IMG/VR virus record: IMGVR_UViG_3300005329_000027
Location: 1 to 25,067 of that record
Strand: one strand, 5' to 3'
DNA from: a virus
DNA length: 25,067 nucleotides
The notes beneath the pieces were generated by a model. It searched no databases. It was not told the DNA's origin and saw only the letters and a list, made by a program, of their open reading frames with translations. The translations under genes and the position numbers were made by a program. Every line of letters starts with the position of its first letter. The stretch's first letter is position 1. Below are positions 5,850-17,675 of this stretch, piece after piece.

Positions 5850-5864
5850 CCAGTGGAGACGACC

Positions 5865-6584
5865 ATGCGTACAATTGTATTATCGACCGCCGCTATCATC
5901 GCCCTCGCCCTCGGCATGGCGCCGGCGCACGCCGTTCTACAAATCGCCTGGGACTTCGGAGGAACGACCGGCGGCTGCGTCGACAACACCGGGTGCGACC
6001 TCAACCTGGCTGTTGGCACGCTTCAGATCGGTGACCAGAACATCGGCGGACTACAAATCAACGGGTCGATCCAGACGTCGGCCAAGGGCACGACCAACAT
6101 CCTCAACACGTCCTCGTTGAGCGTCGTCAACACGACCGGCGCCAGCATCGATTATGCCCTAGCAGTCGGCGACACCGATTTCGTCGGGCCGGTCACGAGC
6201 TTTAGTGCATCGGGCTCCGGCACATGGCAGACCGCCGCCGGGTCGACCATCACGATGAACTGGTACAACGACGCGGGCAACAATCAGGGCGCCGACACCA
6301 CAACCGACACGCCGGGCGTTTTGTTGCACACATTCAGCGATACCGCCGGGCCGCTGACCGACGCCTTCGCGACCTCGCTGGTGGGGCCGGCGAACGACCC
6401 CTCGCTGTTCAGCATGACCGAGACGGCGAGCGGGGCGCTGGTGGCCGGCGGGCAGCTTGTCAGCCGCGGCCAGACCGAGATCAAGGAGCTGGTCGCCACG
6501 GTGCCCGAGCCGGGCAGCCTGGCGTTGCTGGGCGGGGCGCTCCTGGGCATAGGCGCAATCCTTCGCCGGCGACGCCTCGGGTGA
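5865..6584 (+). CDS. Secreted PEP-CTERM sorting-domain protein
   Basis: 239 residues from the ATG at 5865, with GGAG six bases upstream; a GTG at 5853 would add four residues before the signal. N-terminal signal peptide: MRTIVLSTAAIIALALGMAP ending AHA (likely cleavage after residue 23). The mature part is Gly/Thr/Asn/Ser-rich and beta-like, with few charges and one Cys pair (GGCVDNTGC). The C-terminus is a textbook PEP-CTERM tail: VPEPGSLALLGGALLGIGAI (213-232), then a run of four Arg. In bacteria this tail is recognised by exosortase (EpsH family), which sorts the protein to the envelope or biofilm matrix. The gene is embedded in the phage early operon: 15 bp after the methyltransferase and with its stop overlapping the next start (GTGA). 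A phage-borne envelope protein suggests lysogenic conversion or superinfection effects. It needs a host exosortase. Confidence 0.85.
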   Translation: MRTIVLSTAAIIALALGMAPAHAVLQIAWDFGGTTGGCVDNTGCDLNLAVGTLQIGDQNIGGLQINGSIQTSAKGTTNILNTSSLSVVNTTGASIDYALAVGDTDFVGPVTSFSASGSGTWQTAAGSTITMNWYNDAGNNQGADTTTDTPGVLLHTFSDTAGPLTDAFATSLVGPANDPSLFSMTETASGALVAGGQLVSRGQTEIKELVATVPEPGSLALLGGALLGIGAILRRRRLG

Positions 6585-6844
6585 GCGCCGCAGAGGCCGA
6601 CGACCCGGCCGCCTTCGGCGCCGACGCCGACGCGCTCTTGGATCTCATCAAGCCGCTCCTGGCCGGGCAGTCGCCCGAGCTGCAGGGCGCCGTCATCAAC
6701 GATTTGGCGGCGATTTGGATAGCCGGCCATAGGGTTCCCGGCGATCGCGGCGAGGGCGACCGGACGCGCGAGGAGCTGCTGCGGATGCACGCCGAGCACG
6801 TGCGCGAGTTGGTCGCGATGTATGTGGGCGACGCGGATGGGTGA
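6581..6844 (+). CDS. Small acidic hypothetical protein
   Basis: 87 residues from a GTG at 6581 that overlaps the PEP-CTERM stop (GTGA), so translation is probably coupled. Mostly helical and acidic: DADALLDLIKPLLAGQSPEL, later EELLRMHAEHVRELVAMY. No membrane segment, no motif. Larger open frames reaching upstream to 6224 lie inside the PEP-CTERM gene and are discarded. Function unknown. Confidence 0.6.
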   Translation: MSAAEADDPAAFGADADALLDLIKPLLAGQSPELQGAVINDLAAIWIAGHRVPGDRGEGDRTREELLRMHAEHVRELVAMYVGDADG

Positions 6845-7070
6845 GTCGCCCCGGCCCGCGCCGCCCCCGCCCAACCGCGCGGTCGTCAGCGACGACGGCG
6901 TCATCCGGCTGATGGTCTACGCCTCCGGCATCGCCGACCCGCTCGGGGTCGTCGAGCTGTCGGCCGAGGCCGCGGCGCGGCTGGCGGCCGATCTGATCGG
7001 TGCCGCGGCGGCCCGGCTGGAGCGCGAGCGCAACGGCCGCATCGGCGTGCGAAGGGGGCCGGCGCAGTGA
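6837..7070 (+). CDS. Small hypothetical protein
   Basis: 77 residues from the ATG at 6837, overlapping the previous stop by 8 bp, with a GGCG-rich stretch upstream; an ATG at 6822 is possible but lies deeper in the previous gene. Pro-rich start (RPAPPPPNRAV), a short beta-like part (VIRLMVYASGIADPLGVVEL), then an Ala/Arg-rich helix. The stop overlaps the GTG of the radical SAM gene. Function unknown. Confidence 0.55.
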   Translation: MGESPRPAPPPPNRAVVSDDGVIRLMVYASGIADPLGVVELSAEAAARLAADLIGAAAARLERERNGRIGVRRGPAQ

Positions 7071-7906
7071 GCCGCCTGATCCGCGTCTTCCCGCGCCGCA
7101 CCAAGGCGACGCCCGACGACGACCTAGTGTATTGCGGACCGCCCGACCTGTTCGCCGAGGCGGACGAGGTGCATGTTTCGGTGTCGTTCACCTGGGACCG
7201 GGACCGCGCCGAGCAGCTCGCCGAGCAGTGGCGCTGGGTCGCCCCGGTCAAGGTCGGCGGCGTCGCGTATGGCGACGACAGCCTCGAGTTCATTCCAGGC
7301 CGCTACGTCAAGCCGGGGTACACGATCACCTCGCGCGGGTGTCCGCGGCGCTGCTGGTTCTGCGGCGTGTGGAAGAAGTGGCCCGAGCCGAACCTGCTCC
7401 CGATCGTGGATGGCTGGAACGTGCTCGACGACAATTTGCTGGCCTGCCCGACGCCGCACGTCGAGGCGGTCTTCGCCATGCTGCGCCGGCAGAAGCGGCG
7501 GGTCGAATTTACCGGCGGGCTCGAGGCGCTGGCGCTCGAGGACTATCAGGTTGAGTTGTTGGCGAGCCTCTCACCGCGCCCAACCATGTTCTTCGCCTAT
7601 GATCCTGGCGACGCGTTCGAGACGCTGGCGATCGCCGCGAGGAAGCTGCTTGCTGCTGGGTTCACGCGCGCTTCGCACCGAATGCGCTGCTATGTCCTGA
7701 TCGGGCATCCCAAGGACAGTTTCGACGCCGCGGCGGCCCGCCTCGGCCAGATGGTCGAGATAGGCTTTACGCCATTTGCCATGCTGTGGCGGCCGGAGAA
7801 GCACGAGCGGCGCTATACGCCTGGACCGCAGTGGCGAGCGTTCCAACGGCGGTGGGCGCGGCCGGCGATGATCCACGCGCGGCAGCCGCGGGGTCTCGCG
7901 GCATGA
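7067..7906 (+). CDS. Phage radical SAM protein
   Basis: 279 residues, GTG start overlapping the previous stop. The radical SAM signature CPRRCWFC (C92, C96, C99; CX3CX2C) sits in GYTITSRGCPRRCWFC, preceded by an N-terminal region with VHVSVSFTWD that could be a small Rossmann-like domain, and followed by strand-helix repeats of a partial TIM barrel (VEFTGGLEAL, PTMFFAYD, RCYVLIGHP). Such enzymes bind a 4Fe-4S cluster and cleave S-adenosylmethionine to start radical chemistry. Phage members are frequent but mostly without known substrate; nucleic-acid or protein modification is the usual guess. Next to a PAPS-reductase-like gene and with two methyltransferases in the same operon. Confidence 0.8.
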   Translation: MSRLIRVFPRRTKATPDDDLVYCGPPDLFAEADEVHVSVSFTWDRDRAEQLAEQWRWVAPVKVGGVAYGDDSLEFIPGRYVKPGYTITSRGCPRRCWFCGVWKKWPEPNLLPIVDGWNVLDDNLLACPTPHVEAVFAMLRRQKRRVEFTGGLEALALEDYQVELLASLSPRPTMFFAYDPGDAFETLAIAARKLLAAGFTRASHRMRCYVLIGHPKDSFDAAAARLGQMVEIGFTPFAMLWRPEKHERRYTPGPQWRAFQRRWARPAMIHARQPRGLAA

Positions 7907-8670
7907 GCGCGGTGAGCGAGCGCGCGGGGTGCATCGCGATCCCGCTGTCCTGCCATCGGTGCGGCCATGCCTGGGCGGACTGGCAGCCGCGCGATGTCAC
8001 GGTCGCGGCCTGGCTGGCGCGCGTGCTGCCGTTTCCGGTGCGCCGTGTAACGGCTGGCGACATCAAGCAGGGCATACGCGACCGGAGATCGGCACGTTCC
8101 GGGCGGTTCGCTGCCGTACCCTGGCACATCGCCAACCCCGACGGCAGCCTCGGCATGGGCGTCCGGCAATGCTCGGCCGAATACAAGCTCGAGCCGATCG
8201 CAAAGGAAGTGCGCCGCTTGCTCGGCAAGCCACATCCTGCCCGCATAGCGCCCGGCTCGGTGACAATGCTGCTCGGCATCAGCATCGACGAAGCGCACCG
8301 CATGAAGCCGCCCCGCCGCAAGTTCATGGTCAACAGCTACCCGCTGGTTGACCTCGGCATGCGCCGCTGGGACTGCCTGCAATGGATGAAGCGGGCCGGC
8401 TATCCCGAGCCGGGCAAGAGCGCCTGCATCGGTTGCCCGTACACCAGCAACGCACGCTGGCGGGATCGGCGCGACAACCAACCCGACGAGTGGCGGGAAG
8501 CTGTCGAGATGGACCGCGCCCTGCGCCAAGGCGATGCGCGCGGCATGCGCGGCCTCGAATACATGCACCGATCCTGCGTGCCGCTCGACCAGGTCGATCT
8601 GTCCACCGCTGCCGAGCGCGGCCAACCCGACCTGTTCGGCAACGAGTGCGAGGGCGTGTGCGGTGTTTAG
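7903..8670 (+). CDS. PAPS-reductase-like protein lacking the N-terminal PP-loop
   Basis: 255 residues from the ATG at 7903 (ATGA overlap with the radical SAM gene). The middle and C-terminal parts match the phage PAPS-reductase/adenine nucleotide alpha-hydrolase group: PFPVRRVTAGDI (44-55), VRQCSAEYKLEPIAKEVRRL (~87-106), then a WDCLQWMKRAGYPEPGKSAC-IGCPYTSNARWRDR block. The usual N-terminal ATP-binding SGGKDS loop is missing. In its place is a short segment with CHRCGHAW, which looks like the start of a zinc-ribbon phage protein. The gene thus looks like a deletion fusion, or a family version that lost ATP chemistry. The frame is intact for 255 codons, so it is not an obvious pseudogene. Confidence 0.7.
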   Translation: MSAVSERAGCIAIPLSCHRCGHAWADWQPRDVTVAAWLARVLPFPVRRVTAGDIKQGIRDRRSARSGRFAAVPWHIANPDGSLGMGVRQCSAEYKLEPIAKEVRRLLGKPHPARIAPGSVTMLLGISIDEAHRMKPPRRKFMVNSYPLVDLGMRRWDCLQWMKRAGYPEPGKSACIGCPYTSNARWRDRRDNQPDEWREAVEMDRALRQGDARGMRGLEYMHRSCVPLDQVDLSTAAERGQPDLFGNECEGVCGV

Positions 8671-8730
8671 CGCGCTTTGCACCTTGCCGCGGCCGGCGTG
8701 CGTCGCTTACGCTGTCCGGCGGAGTAATCC

Positions 8731-8930
8731 TTGGGAGAAATATCCCGGAAATAGCAAAACCCGCCGAGGCGGCGGGTCTGCATATTCGGCGATGCGGGGA
8801 ACAAAGCCCCCGAGCTCAGTGCGTTGCAACGCTGAGCTTTCCCCACATCGCCGGCTTTTGCAAGCCCGAAGTTCGGGCCACGGGAATCGTGCGCCCGAAT
8901 GCCGCCTCCAGCCGGGTTGCGCCCGCAACC
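8731..8930. other. Structured non-coding block before the replication gene
   Basis: The only gap above 120 bp in the 3861-12626 operon. It holds a chain of inverted repeats: GGGA/TCCC (8733-8746), ACCCGCC/GGCGGGT (8759-8777), a 15-bp stem CGGCGATGCGGGGAA/TTCCCCACATCGCCG (8787-8801 with 8839-8853, one C-A mismatch) enclosing AGCTCAG/CTGAGCT (8813-8838), then GCCCGAA/TTCGGGC (8864-8878) and GGTTGC/GCAACC (8915-8930). Several arms have two possible partners. It ends directly at the ribosome binding site of the DUF1376 gene. It could be a cis-acting RNA switch or attenuator, a small RNA, or a replication origin. I recognise no known family. Confidence 0.6.
8759..8777. terminator. Hairpin ACCCGCC-GAGGC-GGCGGGT, possible leftward terminator
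   Basis: Perfect 7-bp stem with a 5-base loop. On the plus strand it is preceded by AAAA but not followed by a T-run; read leftward it ends in GGGTTTTGC. It resembles an intrinsic terminator for leftward transcripts, or simply the first hairpin of the structured block. Confidence 0.35.
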
Positions 8931-8945
8931 AGGGGAGCATGACGC

Positions 8946-9761
8946 ATGATTAAACTCCGGCACGTACCCTTTTTCTCGGACGAGTGGCTGGTCGGGACGG
9001 CAACGATGCCGGTTGCCGACGTGGGCGTCTACATCCAGGCCGTTGCGCTGATCTACAGCCACGGCGGCGAGGTCGAGTCTGACGAGTTGCGGCGCATCGT
9101 GCGATGCCGGAAACAGGTCTTTGAGGCGTCGCTCGGCAGGCTGCTGGCGGCCGGCAAATTGACCCTGCATGGAACCCGACTGCGGTCGGAACGCTGCACG
9201 ACGACGATACGAACGTGTCGTGAAAGAGTCCTGAAGCTGACAGATAACGGTCGCAAAGGAGGACGTCCTCCGAACGAAATCAAGGACTTGCCGAAACCAA
9301 ATGGTTCTTACGCGCGCGCGAAAGGGAACCAGAGTCTAAAAGAAGATTCTTTAAGAGAAGAAGGGGAGGGGCTGGGTCGCTGCGCTCCCTCAGAGGAGGT
9401 CGCCGCAGAGGGCAGCGACCCGCCGGCACCTGCCGTCATCGAACCGGAGGACACCGAACCCAGCGTCGAGGTGGACGCCCTCGTTGCGTCTGCCGTTGCC
9501 CACCTGGAAGGCAAGCGGACGCGGGTCGCCGACCCCGTGGCGTACCAGCGCGGCATCGAGGCCGCCAAGTGGCAGAACTGGCTCGCCAGCCTGCATCCGC
9601 TGGTCGCCCAGCATCTTTCCGGCGCGGCGCTCTGGCCTGCCTACCAAGCCATCAGCGACGCACAGGCGGCCGGGTCGCGGGAGGCGACCCCGCGGGACGT
9701 CCGGGATGTGCTCAACCGCATCGCCAAACTCCGCCCGCCCGAGATGAGGGCCGCCGCATGA
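8946..9761 (+). CDS. DUF1376 / YdaU-like replication protein
   Basis: 271 residues. GGGGAG lies eight bases before the ATG at 8946; an earlier ATG at 8939 opens only a four-codon frame. The N-terminal ~110 residues match the DUF1376 winged-helix type: FFSDEWLVGTATMPVADVGV (9-28), a YIQAVALIYSHGGEVE helix, IVRCRKQVFEASLGRLLAAG, ending in NGRKGGRPPNE. A Glu/Pro-rich linker (~135-170) and a helical C-terminal region follow. Phage proteins of this type sit where lambda encodes O and are thought to act in replication initiation or primosome loading. The hairpin-rich block directly upstream may contain its binding sites. The downstream HNH gene starts inside its stop codon. Confidence 0.8.
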   Translation: MIKLRHVPFFSDEWLVGTATMPVADVGVYIQAVALIYSHGGEVESDELRRIVRCRKQVFEASLGRLLAAGKLTLHGTRLRSERCTTTIRTCRERVLKLTDNGRKGGRPPNEIKDLPKPNGSYARAKGNQSLKEDSLREEGEGLGRCAPSEEVAAEGSDPPAPAVIEPEDTEPSVEVDALVASAVAHLEGKRTRVADPVAYQRGIEAAKWQNWLASLHPLVAQHLSGAALWPAYQAISDAQAAGSREATPRDVRDVLNRIAKLRPPEMRAAA

Positions 9762-12626: not shown

Positions 12627-12652
12627 CAAGCCGTGGAATTTATTTGGATGAT
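12623..12652 (+). promoter_or_regulatory. Candidate late promoter
   Basis: A perfect -35 TTGACA (12623-12628) overlaps the stop of the regulator gene. GATGAT (12647-12652) follows after 18 bases as a weaker -10. The A/T-rich spacer stands out in a GC-rich genome. A terminator follows about 50-80 bp downstream, as in lambda pR'-tR'. The -10 match is only 4 of 6, so the exact start is unsure. Confidence 0.45.
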
Positions 12653-12681
12653 TTATGCAATCCCTTCGAATTGTCACTCCA

Positions 12682-12699
12682 CGGTGGGCATACCCACCG
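12682..12699 (+). other. Hairpin CGGTGGG-CATA-CCCACCG
   Basis: Perfect 7-bp stem with a CATA loop, lying between the putative late promoter and the terminator. It overlaps a 10-bp inverted repeat, CACTCCACGG (12675-12684) / CCGTGGAGTG (12754-12763), whose arms bracket the terminator; CCGTGGA also occurs at 12631-12637. It may be a pause or antiterminator-loading element. Confidence 0.4.
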
Positions 12700-12702
12700 G
12701 AG

Positions 12703-12731
12703 CCCGCCCGGAACCATCCGCGGCGGGTTTT
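12703..12731 (+). terminator. Rho-independent terminator before the late genes
   Basis: CCCGCC-CGGA-ACCA-TCCG-c-GGCGGG: ten base pairs with one bulged C and a four-base loop, followed by TTTTGCGTTT. It would stop early transcription after the regulator gene and require antitermination or a later promoter for the structural genes. Confidence 0.75.
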
Positions 12732-12834
12732 GCGTTTAAGTGCGCTGGGAAGCCCGTGGAGTGGCCTGTTTGCCGGACCCGACCCGGAATAGCCAAAAGC
12801 CGCCTCATGGCATCAGGTGGTCACGGCAGGCGAT
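12732..12834. other. Non-coding stretch, no clear content
   Basis: Lies between the terminator and the end of the leftward secreted-protein gene. Apart from CCGTGGAGTG (12754-12763), one arm of the inverted repeat around the terminator, I see no gene or strong hairpin. A 103-codon open frame running through 12633-12944 has low-quality composition and no ribosome binding site and was not accepted. Confidence 0.4.
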
Positions 12835-13077
12835 TTAATGGCCTGTTTGACGCGCAGCCTTCTCCCGCTCGCTCTTCTGTAGGACGTAGATCATCCGCGC
12901 TGTTTCCAGATTGCGACGACACCGGGCAGCATCGCTCACGCTGAGCAACGCTACCGGAAGCGCGCATTCCGGCGCCCGCGCAAGGGCAATGGCCTCGATC
13001 GCGTCCGCACGTTCCTCCGCGACTGCCGGGCCCGCCAACACCAGGCCCGCAGTCACCAGATACGCCAACCACCGCAT
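12835..13077 (-). CDS. Small secreted protein encoded antisense to the late operon
   Basis: 80 residues from the ATG at 13077, chosen because GGGAG stands eight bases upstream and a signal peptide starts exactly there: MRWLAYLVTAGLVLAGPAVA followed by EERADA. The mature part (~58 residues) has two Cys (APEC, ARCRRN) that could form a disulfide, and a charged helical end (KSEREKAARQTGH). The open frame continues upstream to 13377, but that extension overlaps the HNH gene and lacks a signal. The only leftward gene in the structural half, it needs its own promoter and is a candidate lysogenic-conversion gene. No homologue recognised. Confidence 0.6.
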   Translation of the reverse strand: MRWLAYLVTAGLVLAGPAVAEERADAIEAIALARAPECALPVALLSVSDAARCRRNLETARMIYVLQKSEREKAARQTGH

Positions 13078-13224
13078 GTACCGTACTCCCACCATACCGG
13101 CATACACAGGTAGGGAATCGCTTGCCGTGCCGCTTGCTGGTTTCGGCCAATTACTTGATATCGGCGCATGACGGGTAGATCTGCTGGCCGGTCGAGCGGG
13201 CGCTGACCGAAGGTAGAGGACGTT

Positions 13225-15719: not shown

Positions 15720-17675
15720 ATGGACCTGATCCGCAAACGCGAGGTTGCGGCGCCGCCCCCGGCCACGGACCCGCGCGAGTTCGTCATGTCGGATGGCAGC
15801 GTCGACCGCATGGGCGACGTGATCGAGCCGGACGGCTGGCGGCTGGAGCGTTTTCACCGCAACCCGGTAGCGCTGTTCAACCACAACCCGGAGTTTCCGA
15901 TCGGCACCTGGCGCGACGTCGCGGTGCGCAAGGGGAAACTCACCGGCCGGCTCGAGCTGATGGAGCCGGTGTCGTACCGGCTGAAGGAGCTGCACGAAGC
16001 GGTCGAGGCCGGCGTGCTGCGCGCCGTGTCGGTCGGGTTCCACAGCGACAGTTTCGAGCCGCTCGGCAAGTCCGGCGGCGTCCGGTTCACCGAGGCCGAG
16101 CTGGTCGAGTGCAGCTTGGTGTCGGTTCCCGCAAACCCGAACGCACTGGCGATAGCCAAGGCGCTCGGCCTCTCCCGCGAGACGCAGGGCCTGATCTTCG
16201 GCGAGCGCGCCTTTGATGAGGGTCGGTCCGCTCCTCGCGGTTCAACCGGCGAGCCAGCCAGGGACGACAATGCCAAGACAGGAAACCGAACGATGCTTTA
16301 CAGTGAGCGCATCGAGAGCGCGCAAAAGGAAGTCGTGACACTGCAGGACCAGTTGGCAAGCCTGCCGGATGCCGAGGACGTGGCGCGGGTCAGTGACCTG
16401 ACGGCACGCATCGGCGAGGTGAAAAACAAGATATTCGCCTGGACCGAGGCCGAGAAGGCGCTCGGCGAGAACGCGCCGATCACGGTGCCGAAGGATCGGA
16501 TCACGGTCTACTCACCGGCACAACCGTTGCCCGCGTCGGCGCCGAAAGCCTGGGCGCAACCGAAGCGCAAGGCGGCCGAGCCGGGCGACTATGTGATCCG
16601 GCACTTTTTGGCGAAGACGCTGGCTTTTGTCACCAAGCGGCCGGCCGAGGCAATACTTGAGGAGCACTACGGCGCGCACGGCGACTACGAGGCAACCCGC
16701 GGCGTCCACGAGTGGATCACGCGGGCCGCCACCGCGCCGGCGACGACCACGACCGCGGGTTGGGCGGCCGAGCTGGCGGTGACCGGCCAGGGCGAGTTCG
16801 TCAATCAGATCATGGCCGGCTCGGTGTTTCAGCCGGTCGCATCGCGCGGCATGCAGATCACGCTCGGCCGCTACGGCCAGATCAGCATGCCGACACGTGT
16901 GGCGACACCCACGGTGGCGGGGAGCTTTGTGCTCGAGGGCAGCCCGATTCCCGTCAAGCAGGCGGCGTTCACCACCGTGTCGATCGGGCTGAAAAAGCTG
17001 GCGGTGATCACGTCCTACACGCGCGAGATCGCCGAGCACTCGACACCCGAGATCGAGATGATCCTGCGCCAGCTCATCGTCGACGACACCGGGATCGCGG
17101 TCGACACGGTGTTTATCGACAACGTGGCGGCGACCTCGATCCGCCCGGCCGGGATCAGGGCGGGCATCGCCGGTCTGACACCAACGGCGGGCGGCGGGTT
17201 CGCGGCGCTGGTGGCGGACGTCAAGGCGCTGGTCGGGGCGCTGGCGACGGTCAACGCGCTGCGGCAGCCGGTGTGGATCATGAACCCGGTGCAGCAGATC
17301 GCCATATCGCTGACGCAAAATGCCGGCGGCGATTTTCCGTTCCAGGCCGAAATCAACGGCAATCGCATGCTCGGGTATCCGGTCGTCGTGTCGTCGACGG
17401 TGCCGGCCGGGATGGTGATCCTGATTAACGCCGACGATCTGATGGTGGTGCAAGGGGATAGCCCCAGGTTCGATGTATCGGATCAAGCGACTCTGCATTT
17501 TGAGGACACGTCCCCGTTGCAACTGGTAACGGGAGCCCAGGGGAGCGGAGTAGTCGCCAGTCCGAGTCGCTCACTTTTTCAAACCGACAGTCTCGCCCTC
17601 CGCATGATTCTACCAATGAACTGGGCGCTCTTGCGCACCGGCTCGGTGGCATGGGTGACGGGCGTCACCTGGTGA
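15720..17675 (+). CDS. Fused prohead protease-major capsid protein (HK97 type)
   Basis: 651 residues in one frame. Residues 1-~165 are an HK97-type prohead protease: VDRMGDVIEPDGW (28-40), LFNHNPEFPIGTW (52-64) with candidate His55, AVSVGFHSD (102-110) with candidate Ser104, and ECSLVSVPANPNA (130-142). Residues ~192-270 are a helical scaffold/delta-like segment, and ~290-651 an HK97-fold coat protein (GEFVNQIMAGSVFQP, GRYGQISMPT, KKLAVITSYTREIAEHSTPE, the GYPVVVSST strand). In most relatives these are two genes. An internal ATG at 16293 (residue 192, MLYSERIESAQ) with AGGA nine bases upstream could also yield free capsid protein. The protease would cut itself and the delta domain off during maturation. 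Confidence 0.88.
   Translation: MDLIRKREVAAPPPATDPREFVMSDGSVDRMGDVIEPDGWRLERFHRNPVALFNHNPEFPIGTWRDVAVRKGKLTGRLELMEPVSYRLKELHEAVEAGVLRAVSVGFHSDSFEPLGKSGGVRFTEAELVECSLVSVPANPNALAIAKALGLSRETQGLIFGERAFDEGRSAPRGSTGEPARDDNAKTGNRTMLYSERIESAQKEVVTLQDQLASLPDAEDVARVSDLTARIGEVKNKIFAWTEAEKALGENAPITVPKDRITVYSPAQPLPASAPKAWAQPKRKAAEPGDYVIRHFLAKTLAFVTKRPAEAILEEHYGAHGDYEATRGVHEWITRAATAPATTTTAGWAAELAVTGQGEFVNQIMAGSVFQPVASRGMQITLGRYGQISMPTRVATPTVAGSFVLEGSPIPVKQAAFTTVSIGLKKLAVITSYTREIAEHSTPEIEMILRQLIVDDTGIAVDTVFIDNVAATSIRPAGIRAGIAGLTPTAGGGFAALVADVKALVGALATVNALRQPVWIMNPVQQIAISLTQNAGGDFPFQAEINGNRMLGYPVVVSSTVPAGMVILINADDLMVVQGDSPRFDVSDQATLHFEDTSPLQLVTGAQGSGVVASPSRSLFQTDSLALRMILPMNWALLRTGSVAWVTGVTW

Follow-up and report, generated by a model that had tools for sequence, protein, structure and literature searches.

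The region at positions 8683-8945 of the window (the whole 25,067-nt stretch of IMG/VR record IMGVR_UViG_3300005329_000027, probably a fragment of a virus genome) is likely to act as the structured 5' leader of the replication gene that follows; a predicted gene for a small counter-transcribed RNA overlaps it on the opposite strand. From the sequence we infer that both RNAs are made, that they would pair with each other and that this pairing would repress the replication gene. The features of the region are listed in Table 1. Their order is conserved among homologues and runs from the probable promoter through the hairpin GGGAGANNNATCCC, the element AGAAATAGCAAAA, hairpin P2 and an AT-rich linker to the long hairpin P3 (arm A, segment B, inner hairpin and arm C), followed by TTTTGCAAG or a variant of it, hairpins P4, P5 and P6, the Shine-Dalgarno sequence and the replication gene.

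Table 1 Features of the replication-gene leader and of the predicted antisense RNA gene in the window
Feature	Position	Strand	Basis or remark
Probable leader promoter, TTGCCG - 18 nt - TACGCT	8683-8713	+	Seen in sequence; putative
Two small hairpins, GGA-GTAA-TCC (8721-8730) and GGGA-GAAATA-TCCC (8733-8746)	8721-8746	+	
Intrinsic terminator of predicted antisense RNA, GC hairpin 8776-8760 then TTTTGCTATTTCC (8759-8747)	8747-8776	-	Terminator scan
Arm A, 5' arm of long stem	8787-8801	+	Complementarity; covariation with arm C
Competing hairpin A:B, CGGGG AACAAAGC CCCCG	8795-8812		On minus strand, hairpin 1 of predicted antisense RNA
Inner hairpin	8813-8838	+	Loop 8820-8831 complementary to 5' tail of predicted antisense RNA
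Arm C of long stem	8839-8853	+	Complementarity; covariation
Predicted antisense promoter, CTTGCA 8864-8859 and AAAGCT 8840-8835, 17 nt from CTTGCAA heptamer	8835-8864	-	Spacing tests
Predicted counter-transcribed antisense RNA, ~80 nt	8747-8828	-	Predicted from promoter spacing and terminator
Hairpins P4 (8864-8878), P5 (8879-8891) and P6 (8915-8930)	8864-8930	+	P6 immediately 5' of Shine-Dalgarno
Shine-Dalgarno sequence AGGGGAGC	8931-8938	+	
First replication gene, DUF1376 / phage primosomal protein	8946-9761	+	

The original prediction placed a long nested stem with a competing hairpin just before the replication gene, and its components are all present. Arm A CGGCGATGCGGGGAA is complementary to arm C TTCCCCACATCGCCG at 14 of 15 positions (93%), the enclosed AGCTCAG/CTGAGCT hairpin lies at 8813-8819/8832-8838, and CGGGG (8795-8799) can pair instead with CCCCG (8808-8812). 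The gene that follows immediately encodes a product with matches to PF07120 (E 1.3e-6, just under the Pfam cut-off) and to the primosomal protein family phrog_9327 (E 5.7e-16). The description of this region as the only large gap of the operon was too strong, given that the list of open reading frames shows others at approximately 6585-6821 and 12627-13224. The folding energy of the 72-nt block is -40.5 kcal/mol, compared with -23.0 ± 3.2 for shuffled sequences (z = -5.5; none of 200 shuffles as stable). Folding stability alone cannot pick the strand, because the entire gap 8671-8945 gave near-equal values for the plus (z = -5.0) and minus (z = -5.1) strands; counts of GU versus AC, made by eye and unscored, favour the plus strand. 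The putative leader promoter was missed by a simple consensus scan; it is kept in L072, L083 and L087, and a diverged form occurs in L071b, L100b and L102. No relevant Rfam family was found for the leader at gathering or permissive thresholds, and a pseudoknot joining the inner loop to P6, inspected by eye, was inconsistent across homologues.

The large terminase of the window is HK97-like and yielded 69 related loci. Relatives of the leader were identified by comparing gaps among these terminase relatives, by pattern searches, through the neighbouring PEP-CTERM gene and through DUF1376 alignment. A covariance model (R1), built from three leader copies, recovered 10 copies in eight phage records, each directly 5' of the first replication gene: the window, L071 (two copies), L016, L083 (also in L084), L087, L072, L100 (two copies) and L102. 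There was no further match elsewhere on the plus strand of those records. What follows the leader varies: at least three unrelated kinds of gene occur, namely one for a DUF1376 primosomal protein (in the window, L071 and L083), one for a DnaB-like helicase carrying an AAA_25 domain (L016, L072, L102) and one for a DnaD-like helicase loader (L087), a tally that covers seven of the eight phages, all but L100. Hairpins equivalent to P4, P5 and P6, with altered sequence, were recognised by eye in L016, L071, L072, L083, L087, L100 and L102. Other searches were less productive: blastn of the region against a phage collection gave no match, L087 as query gave chance-level matches only, and the DUF1376 protein as sole query found none among viral contigs. 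A pattern scan of a genome collection returned five matches, about the chance expectation and none with the rest of the element, and a P2-type pattern scan of viral sequences returned unrelated terminators and the already known L082 only.

Several features of these phages were noted alongside the leader. In two records a tandem pair of leaders with differing hairpin types precedes one replication gene (L071:1294 and 1501; L100:4988 and 5156). The GGGAGANNNATCCC hairpin at 8733-8746 is retained in 8 of the 10 copies from phages, has diverged in L102 and is lost from L100b; it is the most conserved piece among the phages, yet it is absent from pAgK84-type plasmids, and the antisense model leaves it unexplained. 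In the window alone, radical-SAM and PAPS-reductase-like genes (7067-8670) separate the gene at 6822-7070 from the leader. They are probably inserted cargo, because L071, L083 and L087 lack them at this position, and the leader acts like a module border in that these genes separate it from the gene directly preceding it in relatives. Further upstream, 5853-6584 encodes a phage protein with a PEP-CTERM motif that is kept in relatives upstream of the leader, and a single reading frame at 15720-17675 combines prohead protease (Peptidase_S78) and major capsid domains.

A check for compensatory changes had been set beforehand as the refuting test of the predicted folds, and the claim stood. Both-sided changes were found at 5 of 8 pairs of the long stem A:C, with a covariation score of 0.40 versus 0.19 ± 0.04 for shuffles (0 of 500 reached it) and 87.5% paired versus 76% in shuffles and at most 54% in slid controls; the alignment behind these values was hand-assembled from arm segments, and its R. 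leguminosarum row contains one additional base. All 16 homologues compared retain the competing A:B hairpin while its sequence varies; the homologues are kin, such that counts do not represent independent events. With test segments delimited by hand, the summed A:B stem length was 77, compared with 52.7 ± 3.4 (maximum 62) in 400 shuffles, and for the ten diverged homologues 49 compared with 32.5 ± 2.6. The mutually exclusive folds ahead of the replication gene are therefore real, one covarying and the other kept throughout.

On the minus strand, a terminator scan identified P2 as an intrinsic terminator, with hairpin and U-tract present in all copies and a mean of 5.9 U in the first 9 nt of the tract in homologues. 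At the P3/P4 border the minus strand of every leader reads CTTG, a candidate -35 element, which persists where the pairing of P4 does not depend on it (window, L083, L071b); in two Methylocystis plasmids, where the same holds, it reads CTTGAC. A candidate -10 element with A2 and T6 lies exactly 17 nt past the heptamer in 18 of 25 leaders, compared with no more than 3 of 25 at any of the other 18 spacings, and, in an out-of-sample test, in five of six further repA plasmid leaders. The pAgK84 group has good hexamers (TATGTT, TAGGAT, TATCTT); those of the phages are poor (AAAGCT in the window), and two copies fit at spacing 18 only. The distance between terminator and CTTG box is conserved. In homologues the predicted antisense RNA would measure 63-89 nt and comprise, from 5' to 3', an unpaired tail, hairpin 1 (B:A) and the terminator. 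Its part 5' of the terminator is barely above shuffle stability (mean z = -0.6), which, like the poor phage hexamers, counts against the model. As judged by sequence evidence only, a putative antisense gene with a terminator lies opposite the rep leader, the arrangement that marks a counter-transcribed RNA. Conservation of both terminator and promoter on the opposite strand points to antisense RNA control.

Under the proposed mechanism, successive hairpins would form along the plus-strand leader, with arm A paired to the distant arm C. Transcription of the antisense RNA would begin close to 8828 and stop at the terminator around 8747, and the single-stranded 5' tail of this RNA would be complementary to the loop of the inner hairpin of the leader. 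The competing hairpin would be the fold adopted by A and B when C is absent, as in the antisense RNA itself. Where the antisense RNA accumulates, for instance in a prophage or when copy number is high, it may pair with the nascent leader, cover A and B, release C and block A:C pairing, which would lower expression of the downstream replication gene through blocked translation or premature termination. Both routes are viable, because predicted accessibility of the Shine-Dalgarno sequence falls only slightly after the antisense-covered region is freed (mean 0.29 to 0.25; lower in 8 of 22, higher in 1 of 22).

The folds were originally read as a candidate RNA switch, comparable to riboswitches and attenuators. 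A leader acting purely in cis, as an attenuator or translational control in which A:C and A:B switch without any antisense RNA, would account for the conservation of both folds, for the retention of P6 beside the Shine-Dalgarno sequence and for L100b, which lacks P1 and hence indicates that parts are dispensable. We nevertheless regard it as unlikely, since it explains neither the conserved minus-strand U-tract nor the exact 17-nt spacing of the minus-strand promoter, and a plus-strand attenuator is unsupported because the U-run 3' of the long stem is not conserved (L100b; Shinella plasmid L125). It is more doubtful still that the minus-strand hairpin merely insulates against leftward transcription while the remainder is ordinary leader structure. 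P2 on its own does resemble an ordinary terminator, and three unrelated viral contigs have P2-like terminators without the rest, but the covariation of the long stem, the conserved distance from terminator to CTTG box and the conserved position before replication genes all argue against this explanation. It is very improbable that the replication operon begins with an RNA antiterminator resembling put of phage HK022: a chain of hairpins does lie just 3' of the probable leader promoter, the phage is HK97-like, and put RNA works without a dedicated protein factor (PMC9378689), but R1 as query against HK022 26-36 kb found nothing convincing (best 14.6 bits), there is one locus per genome, whereas put, of about 70 nt with two stems, has left and right copies, and the leader also precedes plasmid repA. 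A ligand-binding riboswitch for the DUF1376 gene, suggested by the mutually exclusive folds within a 5' leader, can practically be set aside, because the leader is shared by several unrelated replication genes and by plasmid repA, no Rfam riboswitch class was matched in the window at gathering score, and the long hairpin varies more than any other part, contrary to what a ligand pocket would show.

Copies of the leader also occur before repA on small plasmids of Alphaproteobacteria, in rhizobia-like hosts. On a Shinella plasmid (L125) the leader was detected at 29 bits (E 4e-5), 5' of an HTH_36 gene, and tblastn with the encoded protein retrieved 235 plasmid records, many annotated as replication protein A or repA, including pAgK84. 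By blastn or covariance model the leader was found in Shinella, Neorhizobium, R. leguminosarum and the two Methylocystis plasmids. Before repA of the pAgK84 group, the leader has diverged beyond the reach of the covariance model; inspected by eye, it retains the terminator hairpin, the long hairpin, P4 (GCAAGA...TCTTGC) and the hairpin adjacent to the Shine-Dalgarno sequence, in unchanged order. These plasmid relatives, the sole basis for host assignment, suggest that the phage hosts are Alphaproteobacteria. The R. leguminosarum copy, on plasmid pRLN3 (L130:4001-5431), is followed by an apparently broken repA, and the locus is apparently a decaying second replicon. The Shinella plasmid separately carries, next to nhaA, a match to the nhaA-I riboswitch that exceeds the gathering score (L125:1255-1311). 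A methylobacterial blast match (L126) was rejected as chance.

Among seven phage copies (21 pairs), identity was 86% in the frame and only 60% in the long hairpin, and the two tandem copies of L071 share just 53% within the long hairpin. In incompatibility RNAs a hypervariable target hairpin typically sits within a conserved frame, and the divergence seen here is the pattern that would be expected of an incompatibility determinant. We tentatively propose, as a possibility somewhat short of probable, that in a family of temperate phages of Alphaproteobacteria the replication genes are governed by a plasmid-type antisense module that passes as a cassette between phages and plasmids, and that the antisense RNA of the prophage would confer an RNA-based, type-specific replication immunity ('incompatibility') whose type is set by the variable hairpin, two types standing in tandem in one phage. 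If true, one exchangeable RNA module would link the replication control of phages and plasmids, and an RNA route to superinfection immunity would be open to test. A limited search of open papers found no report on this leader, and none describing such an RNA for pAgK84-type plasmids or their repA; these plasmids include the agrocin biocontrol plasmid. The kind of control is known from the repABC ctRNA and pMV158 RNAII; this family, and its placement ahead of helicase and primosome genes in phages, appear to be new.

In plasmids, control of replication-gene leaders by antisense RNA is a classic way of limiting copy number. Among the closest known parallels are the ctRNAs of repABC/repC replicons (RepE of pTi and the ctRNA of p42d, located between repB and repC), which are also small antisense RNA genes opposite a replication-gene leader and also found in Alphaproteobacteria. 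The repABC leader forms a large stem-loop without ctRNA (PMC3155836, PMC10194956), in which state it is expressed, and forms a terminator with ctRNA (PMC3155836). In contrast, the genes here encode DUF1376, DnaB-like, DnaD-like or HTH_36 RepA proteins rather than RepC, the predicted RNA is longer than the 55-59 nt of its repABC counterparts, and no conserved plus-strand terminator was found by eye before the start codon. Rfam ctRNA families were unmatched in 8671-8945 (to E 5), in L071-L073 (to E 3) and in the plasmid leaders (to E 1). The copG-RNAII-repB arrangement of pMV158 may be echoed on many pAgK84-type plasmids, where a CopG-family gene lies ahead of the leader and repA. In pMV158 the repressor CopG and antisense RNAII together limit repB (PMC4485353). 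The likeness is one of gene arrangement, pMV158 being a rolling-circle plasmid of streptococci, and no CopG gene was noticed beside the phage leaders. Among phages, oop of lambda is a short antisense RNA, transcribed leftward just upstream of the replication gene O and ending in a terminator; it is antisense to the end of cII, whereas the RNA predicted here would be antisense to the leader of the replication gene itself. In extrachromosomal mycobacteriophage prophages a noncoding RNA is needed for plasmid-like replication (PMC7157519); there the RNA region supports replication without RepA, whereas the RNA predicted here overlaps the leader of the replication gene.
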